Origin: an uncultured Verrucomicrobiales bacterium | Lineage (GTDB): Bacteria; Verrucomicrobiota; Verrucomicrobiia; Limisphaerales; JAYPXF01 | Assembly: GCA_937893495.1 (NCBI GenBank) | Contig: CALBIE010000121.1 | Span: 1 to 37,231 of the forward strand | Length of the DNA: 37,231 nucleotides | Direction: 5' to 3' | Made by a program: the position numbers and the translations under genes | Notes under the pieces: model-generated | Database searches by the model: none | Seen by the model: only the letters and a program-made list of their open reading frames with translations | What the model was told of the DNA's origin: nothing | Shown: positions 5,131 through 37,231 of the stretch, piece after piece | How the letters are laid out: the number at the start of each line of letters is the position of its first letter | Position numbering within the stretch: position 1 is the stretch's first letter

Positions 5131-5551
5131 TGCGGCGAACGCATCGCCGGCAAACAGTGCGAAGATCGTAAATCCCTTTGTCCGGAGGACGCCAAGAAGT
5201 GCCGCTGGTGCGGATTCCGGTTCGGGGGAGGGTTCCCGCCGCATCGGTATCCAAGAATCCGAAATCAGAGCCCGGTTGCTGCCGACTTTCCTGATGAGAT
5301 TTCGCCTGTTGCCCGAAAGGATTCGGTTCAACGAGGAGAAACTGGTCGTCTCGACACCAGGACTGTTTCACCGATGGACCAACGAGGCCGAAGTGCCATG
5401 GAACAAGGTGGCCGGTTTTGATTATCGATCGGGAATCTTCTGGGATGCGGTTGAGATCGAAACGCGCGGACAGAAGCCCACGATCTTCCGTTGCCTGGCG
5501 AAGGCGGATGGCGAGAAGTTCCGGGAGACGCTGCGGCGATTGGAGGAGTGA
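5131..5551 (+). pseudogene. truncated and frameshifted copy of the zinc-ribbon/PH-like gene
   Basis: This stretch is a close copy of 751-1170. The alignment offset is 4380 bases until about position 5222-5260 and 4381 afterwards, so one extra base shifts the frame between the zinc-ribbon half and the PH-like half. The first zinc ribbon is missing: homology begins at the TGCGGCGAACGC corresponding to Cys20 of the intact protein. The Cys equivalent to C32 is replaced by Arg (CEDRKS), destroying the second ribbon. The 3' half remains open and closely similar up to its stop at 5551. A longer open frame from 4841 runs into it but begins in unrelated sequence antisense to the transporter operon. 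Confidence 0.85.
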
Positions 5552-5725: not shown

Positions 5726-5821
5726 AAACGGTTCATGTCTGCCATGCGCGAATCGTAAATCGTTGAAACTCTCCATAAACCTCGCGATACGAGGGGCGCC
5801 CGTTAACAAACCGTTAAAAAT

Positions 5822-6362
5822 GTAGCAGCCGACGTGAGGAGAATCCGAGCACGAGAATCGTGCGGCATGAAACCCACGCACTCGTGTCCTCAGGTGGCGG
5901 AGCTTTGCGGTGTGGGGCAGGTCTCCGACCTGCCGGTCCCGGCCTCTCTGAGGGCGGAACAATGCAGTTGAAGCGGCGGGAGCGCGGAATTTATTCCGCA
6001 GAAGTGTCCACCTTCCACCAACGTTCACGCGCTTTCCCATTTGGTCGGAACTCAACACCGTTCTGTGTTTCAGAACCACTCATCGAAATCCACGACAACC
6101 GATTGGCAAATCCACGTGTCTGCGGAATGAATTCCGCGCTCCATCTGCATCGTTCCGGCTGAGGGTGCGAGTCCCGGAAACGAATGTGAGTCTGGATTCG
6201 TCCGGGGAACCAGAGGTTCCCGGAACCGGCGGGCCGGAGACCCACCCCACATTTGCCGGCCCGTTCGTTGGCAGGCTCTGATCTCATCAGTTTTTTCCGG
6301 AGGAGATTGAGCCTCCCGCCTTCGTAGTACTACGGCGCGGCTCGCGTCACCTCGGCTGCTAC
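5822..6362. repeat. composite nested inverted repeat
   Basis: The outer arms (5822-5841, GTAGCAGCCGACGTGAGGAG, and 6346-6362, GTCACCTCGGCTGCTAC) are the two halves of the dispersed hairpin family seen intact at 14453-14522 and 27088-27152. Instead of the usual loop of about 20 bases, about 500 bases lie between them. That interval contains two further inverted pairs, 5911-5949/6211-6251 (GTGGGG...GGTCTCCG) and 5957-6003/6119-6156 (GAGCGCGGAAT...ATTCCGC). The simplest reading is successive insertion of one repeat family into another. Confidence 0.7.
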
Positions 6363-14232: not shown

Positions 14233-14796
14233 AAGTGGCGAAGTGTTGTGTTAACGCTTTGGCAGCGATTGCCAACCTCAAAATCCTGAATCCAACCACA
14301 AAGACACGAAAAACTCGAAGGTGAGCACACTTGGCTCGACCGTGTCTTCCGGCGGCTGGCCGGAAGATTACTGGCACGCGAATGATACTGGTCGATGTGG
14401 GCAGGAAGAGAATTTGCCGAAAAGAAGTTTCGCCCTTTGAACTGCTAAACTGTAGCAGCCGACGTCAGGAGGCTCATGCAACATTGGGAAAAACGATTAG
14501 AGCCTCCTGACGTCGGCTGCTATCAGGTTCTTGGGGAGAATGATGTCCGCCGAAAACAGCACGCCAACCGCGTCCGCTCACTGTCTTGGCACGGTGGCCC
14601 ACTTCCCCCAATCTTCATGCTCTTTGTGTCTTCGTGGTTTTTTCTCAACCAGGGGCCGGATTTGACTAAACTTTGTCGGATCTTTACCACGAAGATTCAC
14701 TGGCAAATACGTCTGATGGTTGAGATTTTTGCATCACTCGAAAAGATTCGTGATTGAAAGTCTGACAACATTGAAGACTATCCCTTTCCCTGCTTT
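14233..14796. other. divergent intergenic region with a perfect hairpin repeat
   Basis: No gene was found between the oppositely oriented sulfatase and giant fusion genes, so the promoters of both should lie here. It contains the perfect hairpin 14453-14522. It also contains the phrases AACCACAAAGACACGAAAAA (from 14297) and, inverted, CTTTGTGTCTTCGTGG (from 14622), which belong to a very common class of intergenic repeat. No clear -35/-10 pair or ribosome binding site stands out. Confidence 0.6.
14453..14522. repeat. dispersed hairpin family, perfect copy (type A)
   Basis: Two 23-base arms (14453-14475 and 14500-14522) are exact reverse complements, with a 24-base loop. The arm begins TAGCAGCCGACGTCAGGAGG. 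It lies in a divergent intergenic region, where a transcription terminator would not be expected. Confidence 0.85.
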
Positions 14797-19203: not shown

Positions 19204-19700
19204 TTCGAACCACCGATTCAATCCGGCCCAACAGGAGTCTCGCTCGCAAAAACTTCACCGCAGGAAATTCGGGCACCGATAGCATCGATGCTACCAGCCC
19301 GTACAAAAACGCAGCATCACATCGTAGCCGCCGAGGTCAGGAGGCGGAATCTTCCAGGAATCGAAAGGTCCTGTCCGCCTCCTTATCTCGGCGGCTACCA
19401 TTTGAACGGACTGCCATTCCGAGTTAAGCAAGCCCGGTGGTCGTCATGCTCGGCTTTTTTGTGGCTTGCCATCCATTCGGACTGGACTGATGTTTGAATC
19501 CAGTTGGAAGGCTGGTTTTGTTCATATCGGCAGGTATCCAAAATGATGTATTTACCCTGTTTAACAGGATGGCGGCAGTTGGTCGATTGAGACACATAAC
19601 CTCCAGAAAACAGGGGCCAGAATGGACCTCGAACATGGGAAATCCGATTTAGATCTGCATTCCAAATTTCATGACACTAACTTGGTAGCTCCTTGACCAT
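19204..19700. other. gene-free region containing a type B hairpin
   Basis: No supported gene was seen. The main feature is the hairpin repeat at 19324-19398. Short frames at 19395-19636 have no recognisable content. Confidence 0.55.
19324..19398. repeat. dispersed hairpin family, type B copy
   Basis: The arms at 19324-19348 and 19374-19398 pair at 23 of 25 positions. The arm begins GTAGCCGCCGAGGTCAGGAG, so it differs from type A by a GCCGCC rather than GCAGCC start and by GGCGGA rather than GGCTC at the inner end. Confidence 0.85.
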
Positions 19701-20484: not shown

Positions 20485-20535
20485 TCATCGCTGGTACCCC
20501 TTGCTCCTGCAACCAGCGGCGGGTGTCGGCTGATG

Positions 20536-20731
20536 GCCAGTCCGGCTCCGGACTTTGGCGGCCCGTCAAAATGATCGGGACGCTCGTCTGTCGATCGGCG
20601 ATGGGAACCGGTTTTCCACAACCGCGCGCTTCACCGGTCTCTGGCGGGCCGCCAGACACAACAGGCCGGCGGCCTGTGCTCCCCTTCCCATCTCTGCGAT
20701 TCTCCGCGCCTCGGCGTCCTCTGCGTTGAAG
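20536..20731. repeat. 196-base direct repeat, copy 1
   Basis: Matches 21362-21557 at a constant offset of 826 bases with three mismatches, all near the right end (TCTCTGCGAT versus TCGCTGTGGT). It includes the hairpins AGTCCGGCTCCGGACT and ACAGGCCGGCGGCCTGT. Confidence 0.9.
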
Positions 20732-21338: not shown

Positions 21339-21557
21339 TAATAGGGTCACCGGGAGTGAACGCCAGTCCGGCTCCGGACTTTGGCGGCCCGTCAAAATGA
21401 TCGGGACGCTCGTCTGTCGATCGGCGATGGGAACCGGTTTTCCACAACCGCGCGCTTCACCGGTCTCTGGCGGGCCGCCAGACACAACAGGCCGGCGGCC
21501 TGTGCTCCCCTTCCCATCGCTGTGGTTCTCCGCGCCTCGGCGTCCTCTGCGTTGAAG
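21339..21557. mobile_element. internally deleted copy of the repeat element
   Basis: The 21-base tip (21339-21359) differs from 20095-20115 at one position, and two bases later the 196-base segment (21362-21557) begins. The middle of the long copy (20116-20535) is absent. Its left end lies three bases after the PspC-domain stop codon and its right end abuts a sulfatase fragment. Confidence 0.65.
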
Positions 21558-26971: not shown

Positions 26972-27351
26972 AGCAGCGCGAAATGAAAAAGCAATTTATG
27001 AATCTGGCAAACCGTAGCAGTTCACGTTTCAGCGTGTTGGAGAGAAGCAGGCTAAAGTTTGATTCCCGGAGGCGATTTCAAAACCCCGTAGCAGCCGAGG
27101 TAACGAGGCTCAAATTTCAAGAAGAACGGAGCCTCCTCACGTCGGCTGCTACAGTTTTGCAATGGGCTCCCCAAACCCAAAATAGCAACGGGAACGCGCC
27201 CGCGTCGAAAGTAGATTTCCGCGCGAACCCCGATACTGGTCTCGGTGACGTCGCAGAGAGTCCATACGCGCTCAAAGAATTCGACCGTTCGTGCCAGTAT
27301 CGCCCGCAACGCGCTGGCCGCGAGGCGCGGCCAGCCACACCCGGGGCGGGT
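26972..27351. other. repeat-filled gap between cytochrome and propeller genes
   Basis: The reading frame of the downstream gene stays open through this interval, but the translation is arginine/serine-rich and covers the hairpin at 27088-27152 and GC-rich palindromes (GGCCGCGAGGCGCGGCC near 27317; CACACCCGGGGCGGGTGTG near 27337). I see no gene. Two genes expected to be close neighbours are thus pushed apart by inserted repeats. Confidence 0.6.
27088..27152. repeat. dispersed hairpin family, type A copy
   Basis: The arms 27088-27111 and 27129-27152 pair at 21 of 24 positions, with a 17-base loop. The right arm is closer to the copies at 5822 and 14453 than the left arm is. Confidence 0.8.
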
Positions 27352-28953: not shown

Positions 28954-29026
28954 TAGCCGCCGAGGTAAGGAGGCGGATTCATCAGGAAATTGAACGATTC
29001 TGTCCGCCTCCTTACCTCGGCGGCTA
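28954..29026. repeat. dispersed hairpin family, perfect type B copy
   Basis: Two 24-base arms, 28954-28977 and 29003-29026, are exact reverse complements (arm begins TAGCCGCCGAGGTAAGGAGG) with a 25-base loop. It lies between convergent genes ending at 28857 and 29087, the one copy where a terminator role is plausible. Confidence 0.88.
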
Positions 29027-29086
29027 CGATGCGATTCCGTGTTTACCAACGGGCTGTCAGCGCGCCGTTGTCTCTCCAACAACGCC

Positions 29087-33156: not shown

Positions 33157-33717
33157 ATGCCCGTGGTGGAACCAGAGCAAGCTGACTCCAATCGACTCGA
33201 GCCCGAGTCGTTGGAAGAGATATTCAAGGCTCTTGAAGAGCCCCTGCTGCGCTACGCCCTGCGCCTGGTGCGGCAGAACGAAACCGCGCAGGACATCTTT
33301 CAGGAAGCATTTTTGAAACTGCACCGCCTATTTGATTCAGTCCGCCAGCCCCGGCCCTGGCTTTACCGAACGGTGCATAACCTGGCAATGAACCACCTCC
33401 GCGCTGCAAAAAAAGTTGTCTCACTCCACACGAGTGATTCCGAGACTGGCGAAAGCAGGGACGTTGAACTGGTGGACAACGAGGTTTTGCCCGACCAGCA
33501 CATCGAGCGAATGGAAGCCATCGGCCAGGCCCGCCTCTGCCTCAATTCCCTTGATGACCGGAAGCGGGAGCTGATCCGCCTGAAATTTGAAGAGGATCTT
33601 TCCTACCAGCAAATGAGCGAACGGATGGGCATCAGTTCAGGCAACGTCGGCTACCTGCTGCATCACACTCTCAAACAACTGGCGGCCGAACTCGAAAGCG
33701 CAGGCGTCAACCGATGA
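33157..33717 (+). CDS. ECF-type RNA polymerase sigma factor
   Basis: The 186-residue protein has region 2 at about 28-90 (ALRLVRQNETAQDIFQEAFL; RPWLYRTVHNLAMNHLRAAK), which binds core polymerase and the -10 element. Region 4 lies at about 130-182 (LDDRKRELIRLKFEEDLSYQ then QMSERMGISSGNVGYLLHH), the helix-turn-helix for the -35 element. No extra domains. ATG 33157 starts a short acidic leader. Its TGA (33715-33717) overlaps the start of an 86-codon ORF, which in turn overlaps the start of a membrane protein with an anti-sigma-like N-terminus, so the three are likely translated as a coupled unit. ECF factors of this phylum are often controlled by such a membrane partner. Confidence 0.93.
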   Translation: MPVVEPEQADSNRLEPESLEEIFKALEEPLLRYALRLVRQNETAQDIFQEAFLKLHRLFDSVRQPRPWLYRTVHNLAMNHLRAAKKVVSLHTSDSETGESRDVELVDNEVLPDQHIERMEAIGQARLCLNSLDDRKRELIRLKFEEDLSYQQMSERMGISSGNVGYLLHHTLKQLAAELESAGVNR

Positions 33718-33974
33718 AAATGACGACTTGGCGGCAGGAATTTCGTAGCGCGGGCGTCTCGCCTGCATGGCGGCATCGCCTGCCAACCGACGCGAACGGT
33801 TCACCCACGCTAAACGCCCGAAACTCCTTGGCTTCCGATCCGGCTACGGGCTGTTTGGACGCGACGATTGCCAGTCCACGCGCCAACACAGGTTGGAAGC
33901 CTGCGCCACGATGCCGTATTCGCTGCCAATTCCGAAATTCCAACGCGACGGACATCCCCGTAAGGCAAACATGA
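33714..33974 (+). CDS. repeat-derived 86-residue ORF coupling sigma factor and membrane protein
   Basis: The ATG at 33714 overlaps the sigma factor stop (ATGA), and the TGA at 33972-33974 overlaps the next start codon (ATGA at 33971). The protein reads FRSAGVSPAWRHRLPTDANG and later NTGWKPAPRC. These are translations of common GC-rich intergenic repeats (GCGCGGGCGTCTCGCCTGC at about 33749; CAGGTTGGAAGCCTGCGCC at about 33892), not of a known protein fold. It is thus probably an inserted repeat that happens to keep an open, coupled frame. Whether a peptide is made, or only ribosome re-initiation matters, cannot be told. Confidence 0.4.
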   Translation: MKMTTWRQEFRSAGVSPAWRHRLPTDANGSPTLNARNSLASDPATGCLDATIASPRANTGWKPAPRCRIRCQFRNSNATDIPVRQT

Positions 33975-36900
33975 GTGCGCCGTCCGAAAATCAAACTCCC
34001 CGAGAGCAGCTCGAGCAACGCATTGTCGCGTTGCTCATGGGTGAACTTGCGCCCGTTGAAGTGGCCGAGGTGGAGCAACTGATCGCCGACGACGTTGAAC
34101 TGAAAGCCTTCTACCGCGAGATGGAGCGCACCATCGCTCTCGTTCGCGATGCCACGCAAAGCACGGTGGTTGAAGCCAATGTCGGTGAGGAACACCTCAA
34201 ACTATCCAAAGAGCGCCGGGAAGCGCTCCTGGCAAAATTCAGGGAATCCCGTTCGGAAAAGAAAGAGGCGATTCCGTTTCCCGTTCAGCAACGCCGACCG
34301 TATTGGATGATTCCCATGGCCATCGCCGCCAGCCTGATGCTGGCGCTCTGGTTGCAGTTTCCGCCTTCCCGCAAGTTGGGCGAGAAAGCCTACCGCGGAT
34401 TCATGTTTAACATCGCCATGCATGATCGACTTGGTGACGCCGGCAGTGCCCCATCGGCGACTATCGAGGCGGAACGCGATTTGGACTCCGGACTCACCGA
34501 GGGAGAAAGCCGCCTGCCGAGTGTTCGCTTCGCGATTACCCGGAAAGATCAACCTGTTGCCGCGGTTTCACGAAGCTTGGCCGAGTCAACAGAACCATTG
34601 TCACAGCGTGATGCTCGAAAAGAAGTGGATTACTTCAGTGACAATATTTCCGCGCGAAGCACCAAGCGCCCCACTGAAAGTCCCCAACCCGCCACGGATT
34701 CCGTCAATCTCTGGGCGGAAGTTCCGTTGCACGTTCCCGGAACGGACTTGAACGGCCGGGCCAAACGTGATGTCGCCCCGACAGCCACAACGGGCGGCAC
34801 TTACGCCTTCTTCGACCAATCCGGGATCGGCCCCCGTCCATCCACCGCACCCGCCGCCACGCCCGGAGACAAATCCGACGGGTATCGAGGCCGGGATTTC
34901 TCCACTTTTGCTCGCCCGTCCCGGCACGAGAGCAAACCCGAATTTGCCGGTGCCGAATTGTTTGGCACGAAGCCGGCGGAGAACGACGCCCTTGTCTCGT
35001 CATTGACGCGCGCTGGTGGTAATCGAGCGAAATCAGCCGGTGACGTGCTGTCGTATGGTGTGGGAGGCGGCGGAGCCGGTAGCGCGCCGCAATCCGGTTC
35101 CGGGCGCGGGTCGATTGCATCGTTGGAGAAACTCCCGGCAACCGGGACGCTGTTCCGCTCATTTGCCGGCATCAGTGGCAACGATGCCGCGCCTCCGACG
35201 GGCCCGGCCTCGTCTCGTGGAAGTGTCGCGGCTGGATTCGACAAAGCGCAGTTGGCCAGCATCGTTCCCGATATCAGCGCCCCCGCTATTGACGCTGAAT
35301 TGCAAAGCGCACAGCGATTCTCCGGGACTGCCGGAACGACCGCCCCGAACCAGACGCACTGGGCATTTGATTCGGGAGCACGATCTCGGGAGTTGGCGGC
35401 GGCGGCGACTCCGATGATTCCACCGGTCGATGAGTTTCAACGATTGCCCGCGCTCATCAACGGTGGTGCCGGGATGAAGGGCGAATCGAATCGCTACTAT
35501 CGACAGAACTATTCCGTGGATAAAGATTTCGCCGGCGAGGATCGGGAAAAAGGCGCCCAATCCCCTGCCGGAACACGAACAATCGTGATTTCCGATGGCG
35601 TTTCAGAGCCATCAGCCAAACTACCCGCTCCGCAGGTACCGAAATTTGAAGCGGGTGGTTATTTGGCTCAACCGACAACCTGGGGCGCGAATAAATCCGA
35701 AATTTCGCAACCCATGCCCCAGCAGGGTCAGTCGGGAGGTCAGCAACCATCCACCTACTCCGAATTTTCCACGCTGACCGATTCAAGAGCGAAACCATCC
35801 CAACCGAACACCCAGTGGTTTGGCAAATCTGAAGGGCAATCGCGCATGGACCCGACTGCGAATGATGCGAAGGGACTGGGCCGTAGATTTGGCATCCAAA
35901 AGATGGATCAGGAAGTAGATGCCCTGGGTTTTTCAGCCGGTCAGAATCGTCAGGGCAACGAATCCGGTCGCGCCATTGTCTTGACCGATGAATTGGACGT
36001 CGGTGAACCCACAAGGCGCGGTCAAACCTCATCGGGCGTCAACAGGGGACTGGCAAAGAAGCGCGCGGATGTCGAGTTGCTGGTGAAACTTGCCGAGGTG
36101 GATAACACCGTTGTCGTCCCTCAATTTCGAATGATGGAAGCCAAAGAGGAGGCGCTCGGGGAGCAGTTGCGAAAATCAATTGGCAACCCGATCGCAAAAC
36201 CGGAAACGAACCTGCGATTGCTGAACGAGTTGTCGGAGCAGACGGCATCGAATCCGAGTGCGGGCATTCGTACCGCGAATTCTGAATCCGCCAAACAATC
36301 CGCACCTCCGGTCACCTTGAACATGCCGGCAACGGCTGCCACCCCCAAATTTCTTGATGGGCAGGAAACCGCTCGTGCCAACGATCAACGCTGGCGCATT
36401 TCGCGAGACAAGATGTTCGGCGATCAGCGGGCGGGCGAATCCGCGCCGAGGGCGACGGAACAAGCGCGCGCAGTCCAGTCTGCCGATGAAATGCTGAGAT
36501 CCGCCGAAACTCCGGCGTTTGCCAATGCTCTGGGCGCCACGCCTGCGCGCGAATTCGGTTGGGCGGATAAGCGTCCGGTGCCAGCAGGCGAGCCGGCACC
36601 CGCTGACAACTATTTCCTCTCTCCCAATCTGCCGACAGCCAAACAAAAGCGCTCGGAGGATTACATTCTCGACGCGATTACACCGTTGGGCGAAGAACGC
36701 AGTCGAGTACGTCGCAGTGACCGGGTCGAACACGGTGTAAATCTTTTTGAAGATTTTGACGACGATGGCGCCGTATCGATCAATGCCTCATCGCCGGCGA
36801 AGGATAAGTCACGAGCCGTCCACTCGGTCGGAGTAGTCGGTTTGGCCGAGGGACTGGAGCTGAAGCGCAAAAGCGTTCCCGGCAAAGTTGAAGAACTGCA

Positions 36901-37231
36901 GCGACAACCTGCCACTCCTGCCCTCCCGGTGCGCCTATCGGTCCTTTCAGGCCGGGCAGCGCCCCAAAAAGCGGCGGCCGCAAAGGCATCTCAGGACCTG
37001 CGATTGAAAGGCAAGCTTGCGCAGTTGGGAAACACAGCGCCGGAAGAAGAAATGGAATTGCCCAAGCAGAGCGCCAAACCGGCTTCCGGATCGCAACGCG
37101 CGAAAAAAATGGCTCCGCCCATCGCCAATCCCGCACCGAAGTCTGGTGAGAAGAAAGTCCAGAAGCCTGCTGCAAAGCCGGCACCGAAACCTGAGCCGAC
37201 CTCGGTGCTGACGCCCAAGCCGGAGGTGCAG
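33971..37231 (+). CDS. very large membrane protein with anti-sigma-like N-terminus (partial)
   Basis: From ATG 33971 the frame is open for 1087 codons to the window edge without a stop. Residues about 8-60 (EQRIVALLMGELAPVEVAEV then EQLIADDVELKAFYREMERT) resemble the helical N-terminus of anti-sigma factors. A single transmembrane helix at about 111-131 (YWMIPMAIAASLMLALWLQF) follows. The rest is an extended, Gly/Ser/Pro/Gln-rich, low-complexity region, with a possible coiled stretch near 698-760 (VELLVKLAEVDNTVVVPQFR). In this phylum, proteins with this N-terminus next to ECF sigma genes often end in a von Willebrand type A domain; that part would lie beyond the window. Role as sigma regulator is inferred from position and N-terminus. 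Confidence 0.8.
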   Translation, partial: MSAPSENQTPREQLEQRIVALLMGELAPVEVAEVEQLIADDVELKAFYREMERTIALVRDATQSTVVEANVGEEHLKLSKERREALLAKFRESRSEKKEAIPFPVQQRRPYWMIPMAIAASLMLALWLQFPPSRKLGEKAYRGFMFNIAMHDRLGDAGSAPSATIEAERDLDSGLTEGESRLPSVRFAITRKDQPVAAVSRSLAESTEPLSQRDARKEVDYFSDNISARSTKRPTESPQPATDSVNLWAEVPLHVPGTDLNGRAKRDVAPTATTGGTYAFFDQSGIGPRPSTAPAATPGDKSDGYRGRDFSTFARPSRHESKPEFAGAELFGTKPAENDALVSSLTRAGGNRAKSAGDVLSYGVGGGGAGSAPQSGSGRGSIASLEKLPATGTLFRSFAGISGNDAAPPTGPASSRGSVAAGFDKAQLASIVPDISAPAIDAELQSAQRFSGTAGTTAPNQTHWAFDSGARSRELAAAATPMIPPVDEFQRLPALINGGAGMKGESNRYYRQNYSVDKDFAGEDREKGAQSPAGTRTIVISDGVSEPSAKLPAPQVPKFEAGGYLAQPTTWGANKSEISQPMPQQGQSGGQQPSTYSEFSTLTDSRAKPSQPNTQWFGKSEGQSRMDPTANDAKGLGRRFGIQKMDQEVDALGFSAGQNRQGNESGRAIVLTDELDVGEPTRRGQTSSGVNRGLAKKRADVELLVKLAEVDNTVVVPQFRMMEAKEEALGEQLRKSIGNPIAKPETNLRLLNELSEQTASNPSAGIRTANSESAKQSAPPVTLNMPATAATPKFLDGQETARANDQRWRISRDKMFGDQRAGESAPRATEQARAVQSADEMLRSAETPAFANALGATPAREFGWADKRPVPAGEPAPADNYFLSPNLPTAKQKRSEDYILDAITPLGEERSRVRRSDRVEHGVNLFEDFDDDGAVSINASSPAKDKSRAVHSVGVVGLAEGLELKRKSVPGKVEELQRQPATPALPVRLSVLSGRAAPQKAAAAKASQDLRLKGKLAQLGNTAPEEEMELPKQSAKPASGSQRAKKMAPPIANPAPKSGEKKVQKPAAKPAPKPEPTSVLTPKPEVQ

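Follow-up and report, generated by a model that had tools for sequence, protein, structure and literature searches.

The junctions considered here have the architecture of the -4 overlap, in which a stop and a start codon share the sequence ATGA and translation passes on by termination-reinitiation (PMC6728339, PMC10666635). Experiments in E. coli and Haloferax demonstrated that reinitiation drops steeply with distance and is nearly abolished at ~20-40 nt (PMC10666635). It was also found that a gene downstream of an overlap is no longer translated when stop codons precede the overlap (PMC6728339). How far terminated ribosomes can reach towards distant downstream starts is disputed: the strict requirement for an overlap (PMC10666635) is opposed by long-gap scanning in work cited there. 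The mycobacterial interspersed repetitive units (MIRUs), covered by a 2025 review (PMC12548453), are repeats that have start codons as their insertion sites and are coupled to the gene at a -4 spacing. In cases such as senX3-regX3, the repeat is located at the ATGA or start codon of co-directed genes and its ORF is coupled to the downstream gene at -4 (PMC12548453, PMC4213456). The Rickettsia palindromic elements (RPE) are dispersed palindromic repeats that are tolerated if the reading frame stays open (PMC10969869). Finally, short upstream ORFs can deliver ribosomes to a gene, as in E. coli iraD (PMC5574718), where the translation itself is the function and not its product.

The junction studied here is situated in a window of 37,231 nt (the whole stretch of DNA that was analysed) from a Verrucomicrobia assembly of 7.98 Mb and 900 contigs (G000). 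It follows an ECF sigma factor gene (33157-33717, plus strand) that encodes 186 aa and ends with a TGA at 33715-33717. The protein contains the Pfam domains Sigma70_r2 (1.5e-12) and Sigma70_r4_2 (4.6e-12) and scores 98.5 bits against TIGR02937 (sigma70-ECF), well over the cut-off of 42.9. With regions 2 and 4 only, and a length within the ~160-190 aa of the group, it is an ECF (group IV sigma-70) factor. The partner gene (33971-37231, plus strand) runs off the contig. It codes for a cytosolic, anti-sigma-like N-domain, a single transmembrane segment (WMIPMAIAASLMLALWLQF, read by eye) and a long periplasmic region. Complete orthologues of the partner carry C-terminal vWF_A, VWA and YfbK_C domains (VWA and YfbK_C above the Pfam cut-offs), while the N-terminus of the orthologues gives sub-threshold matches to the anti-sigma family NF052375 (3.5e-8) and to PRK13920. 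The synteny of sigma and partner genes is kept in ~104 junctions. From this domain and the synteny, the partner would be an inhibitor of the sigma factor.

Both genes are separated by 253 nt of inserted DNA (33718-33970), which are not present in the ancestral junction. The insert is crossed by a bridging ORF of 86 codons (33714-33974, plus strand) that has no recognisable protein family, as no match was obtained in Pfam or NCBIfam. Its ATG (33714-33716) overlaps the sigma stop codon, forming an ATGA at 33714-33717, and its own stop TGA (33972-33974) overlaps the ATG of the partner (33971-33973), forming a second ATGA at 33971-33974. The initial annotation had described this ORF with an ATGA at both ends and 253 inserted bases, and the coordinates as well as the count proved exact. 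Among the forward frames of the insert, the coupling frame is open and the other two hold 3 and 1 stops. Upstream of its start, the partner's own frame likewise lacks stops as far back as ~33745, and one minus-strand frame is open across the whole insert. An AAGG at 33962-33965 (plus strand) is a weak possible Shine-Dalgarno (SD) motif of the partner gene.

Within the insert lies a dispersed repeat element (33743-33911) with imperfect terminal inverted repeats and a variable middle. Its conserved ends (33743-33768 and 33889-33911) are mutually complementary. The assembly contains dozens of copies of them, many paired at a distance of ~65-100 nt. The earlier proposal that the insert is repeat-derived is borne out by these copies. 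The element starts ~29 nt past the ATG of the ORF and stops ~60 nt short of the next ATG. As it is thus enclosed in the insert, it does not have the MIRU-type borders at the ATGA ends. A structured RNA was considered and rejected: the element folds barely better than shuffled sequences (z -1.3), and Rfam gave no match. A related arrangement is found on contig C294 of the same assembly, where the N-terminus of the partner is 73% identical to that of the window. The tail of the insert (33929-33970, plus strand) is common to C294 at 92%, including the start of the partner gene, and is preceded there by a different repeat. In C294, no stop interrupts the coupling frame over the 48 codons that reach to the end of the contig, and a second frame contains stops. 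The contig may represent either a paralogue or a further strain within the assembly. An identical stretch of 55 bases, located within the partner gene, ends both contigs (37177-37231 in the window).

Other repeats were observed elsewhere in the window. Dispersed palindromic repeats of the TAGCCGCCGAGGTCAGGAGGCGGA type occur in both orientations at 19325-19401, 28954-29030, 14443-14475, 27129-27161 and 5816-5847, and form a family distinct from the element at 33743-33911. A direct repeat of 201 nt (98% identical, 826 nt apart) is present at 20531-20731 and 21357-21557 in a repeat-rich intergenic stretch. The regions 751-1155 and 5131-5536, 4.4 kb apart, share 300 nt (87%) and 95 nt (96%); they correspond to a duplicated small gene of the cysteine-rich (zinc-ribbon-like) type, of which the second copy is altered.

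The comparison of the junction covered 320 genomes from the order of the window (Limisphaerales-type, Verrucomicrobia subdivision 3), mostly MAGs, with the named records labelled Limisphaerales, Pedosphaera or Verrucomicrobia subdivision 3. Orthologous sigma/partner pairs are present in about a third of these genomes, and 107 sigma loci were read. In 71 of ~104 orthologous junctions, the ATG or GTG of the partner directly overlaps the sigma stop at -4. Nearly all remaining junctions overlap too (8-17 nt in family f2; TGATG in L112). Since 71 relatives display the direct -4 start, the ancestral junction is a direct -4 overlap, and the first codon of the window ORF is the ancestral start of the partner gene. 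The double ATGA pointed out in the initial annotation is real; its upstream member needs no special explanation, being the overlap inherited from this ancestral state. Outside the order (Chthoniobacter and MAGs labelled Opitutia), mostly direct overlaps were found, together with a single small bridge (L172). One candidate insert (L140, G118:C35) was rejected, as the partner gene is frameshifted ~38 codons past its start, through either a sequencing error or pseudogene formation.

Besides the 71 direct junctions, the comparison of relatives, which the initial annotation had put forward as a check, revealed inserts of 70-613 nt at 14 junctions, and all 14 are bridged by an ORF. In 11 of them the double overlap is exact, with the start codon on the sigma stop and a TGA that forms part of the ATGA at the partner start as defined by homology (L010, which is the window locus, L019, L027, L028, L034, L077, L078, L082, L085, L092 and L104). 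The shared ATGA is thereby found at the 71 direct junctions and at both ends of the 11 bridges, a count that takes in the TAATG start of L082; the other exact bridges start with ATG or GTG. The frames of these 11 loci comprise 43-204 codons. The three inexact bridges end 3 nt before the partner start (L093) or overlap it by 11 nt (L100) or ~40 nt (L115). At L145 (78 nt) it is instead the partner's own frame that is open from an ATG just past the sigma stop, and L095 has a 9-nt gap at the junction. Small insertions of 5 nt (L036, L046), 11 nt (L120) and 20 nt (L020) show the double ATGA as well.

Two of these loci display further details. In the 613-nt insert of L082 (540-1150), several kinds of dispersed repeats are stacked, and one frame is still open, for 204 codons, with 3 and 6 stops in the other two forward frames. 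The repeats seem to have landed inside an insert that was already bridged. In L027 (1501-2046, minus strand, and downstream), both ATGA sites of the bridge are embedded in near-identical 11-mers, ATGAACCAGGA and ATGAACCCGGA, which suggests that the partner's start was duplicated as the target site when the insert arrived.

The bridged junctions are very probably the outcome of selection for termination-reinitiation coupling between the sigma gene and its anti-sigma-like partner, maintained across the insert by an ORF without product. The sigma factor and the membrane partner would form an obligately coupled pair: ribosomes at the end of the sigma gene would start again at the ATG within the ATGA overlap and go on to translate the partner, thereby keeping both proteins in proportion. 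Dispersed repeats would have been inserted many times just past the ancestral ATG. Given the strict distance dependence of reinitiation (PMC10666635, PMC6728339), an unbridged insert of 70-613 nt should uncouple the partner, and a bridge would restore the hand-over. The survivors would be insertions, in their original or a later state, whose stop-free frame leads from the old ATG to a new ATGA on the partner start, and the ribosome would be handed over twice rather than once. This proposal starts from what was observed (the anatomy, the ancestral junction, the recurrence of inserts and the open frame with its phase) and predicts that the bridging ORF is translated, that reinitiation takes place, that the partner acts as an inhibitor of the sigma factor and that an imbalance of the two is harmful. 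The bridging peptide probably has no function, and the arrangement suggests that the sigma/partner ratio is preserved rather than altered, the latter being a possibility raised in the initial annotation.

For the window alone, the open frame could well be a matter of chance. GC-rich repeat DNA would often be open, with ATGA ends that are coincidental: 18% of dinucleotide shuffles of the window insert stay open in the coupling frame, which after multiplication by 1/3 for the phase amounts to ~6%, and two further frames, that of the partner and one on the minus strand, are open as well. The window locus was accordingly rejected as stand-alone proof. For the whole set, however, this explanation is refuted and deserves hardly any credence. 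Over the 1150 codons of the 14 inserts, the coupling frame contains 1 stop and the other five frames 29, 28, 27, 32 and 23 (1 versus 139; binomial P 2e-10, if all frames are alike). With a single locus per family, chosen least favourably, P is still 1e-4. The coupling frame is the only open forward frame in 11 inserted loci. In 381 kb of G138, 36 of 346 wrong-phase frames that lie between co-directed genes terminate on a downstream DTGA, and against this base rate the exact ends at 11 of the 14 inserts yield a P of 4e-9. The initial annotation had called the arrangement unlikely by chance and suggestive of selection for an open frame; the window by itself (~6%) does not establish this, whereas the relatives, with P 2e-10 over 14 inserts, strongly support it, including selection for the correct phase. 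Its further suggestion of a birth of a gene found no support. A functional peptide, for example in the control of the sigma factor, would fit the frame kept open in the window and in C294 and the similar last residues of the two ORFs (DxPVRQT), but the common tail is simply DNA identity. The bridging peptides of the 14 loci differ, without mutual similarity beyond shared repeats, and a Pfam search with seven of them (the window and six others) gave no match. No conservation of the peptide between species was observed, nor was the same ORF found in relatives as a conserved protein, which would have contradicted the initial annotation. As the peptides are unrelated, the conserved property is translation through the insert and not a protein, and a new gene is about as implausible as chance.

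A frame supplied by the repeats themselves is very unlikely too. In this explanation, the elements target DTGA sites and bring along an ORF that has ATGA at its ends. The same has been proposed for the MIRUs, for which insertion at start codons with -4 coupling has been described (PMC12548453). The present inserts, however, come from many unrelated families, and the element of the window has its borders away from the ATG sites by the distances given above. Inserts of different loci are unrelated except for one repeat common to L028 and L078 and short stretches elsewhere; this shared family is used largely in opposite orientations, with the coupling frame open in both loci. DNA from the inserts of L082 and L078 is found again at dozens of sites in the respective genomes, and 12 of the 20 genomic copies of the L078 repeat are open in the junction frame. 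Only 3 are both open and in register, so the frame is not merely a property of the repeat. On the sigma tree, the presence of inserts requires 12 gains or losses, at least 5 of which are forced by well supported branches, and insert-free sister loci were found in most of the families concerned. The main rival is Rho-dependent polarity, which is unlikely but less so than the explanations above. Here, selection would act on uninterrupted translation itself: the ORF would shield a GC-rich, hairpin-forming insert from Rho-dependent termination and so protect the transcription of the partner, which would initiate by itself. This would account for the ORF covering all 14 inserts, including the three with inexact ends, and for the good SD motifs at some partner starts (strong in L019, L085 and L115, in contrast to the weak AAGG of the window). 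Yet polarity does not require the last stop to lie exactly on ATGA, as it does in 11 of 14, and an SD motif at the partner start was found in 5 of the 14 inserted loci, with no recognisable motif in the other 9. These 9 also dispose of the possibility, raised in the initial annotation, that independent strong ribosome binding sites make coupling irrelevant. At the start of the ORF, an SD motif (embedded in the 3' end of the sigma gene) is present in 10 of the 14 loci.

Several observations were counted against coupling: the ~6% chance level of the window alone, the three inexact ends, L145, L095, the weak SD motif of the window and the strong ones of L019, L085 and L115, the large share of MAGs among the genomes, and a null result at other gene pairs. 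The null result comes from 381 kb of G138, where a crude scan with rough gene starts counted 19 bridges in the coupling phase versus 15 and 21, without an overall excess.

Among the known systems, the insertion of MIRUs at ATGA sites comes closest to this junction. As in the MIRUs, repeat DNA is inserted at a start codon and the ORF is coupled at -4. The MIRUs, however, form a single family of repeats that measure ~50-80 bp and often stand in tandem, whereas the present inserts are heterogeneous, 70-613 nt long, not tandem and, apart from short shared repeats, not built from one homologous unit. They also occur in another phylum, at a single orthologous sigma/anti-sigma junction where the frame has been kept by convergence. 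The bridged junction would thus work like a MIRU without being one, given the unrelated repeats, the lack of a tandem unit and the borders off the ATGA. Ordinary -4 termination-reinitiation has the architecture of both the ancestral and the present junctions, but here the relay runs via an additional product-less ORF of up to 204 codons. The RPE lie within genes and add residues to proteins, while the present repeat forms a separate ORF between two genes. ORFs of the iraD type are regulatory leaders at one locus, in contrast to a within-operon relay that was made many times from unrelated DNA. What appears to be new is the convergent, host-selected bridging at a single conserved sigma/anti-sigma junction.

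It is fairly likely that selection on stoichiometry is strong enough for any stray DNA at this junction to become, or stay, a ribosome-relaying frame. If true, there would be dozens of relay ORFs without product, conserved solely in being translatable in one phase. The junctions would then amount to a natural mutational scan, according to which the ribosomes of these bacteria are unable to scan over a gap once they have terminated. The natural insertions into this one orthologous junction, at least a dozen in number and every one bridged, would provide evolutionary evidence for the strict model of reinitiation, and the natural bridged junctions are ready-made test constructs. The bridging ORFs resemble orphan genes but probably lack a functional product, which is a warning for catalogues of small proteins. 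For the uncultured bacteria themselves, the bridges suggest strong selection on the proportion of sigma factor and partner.
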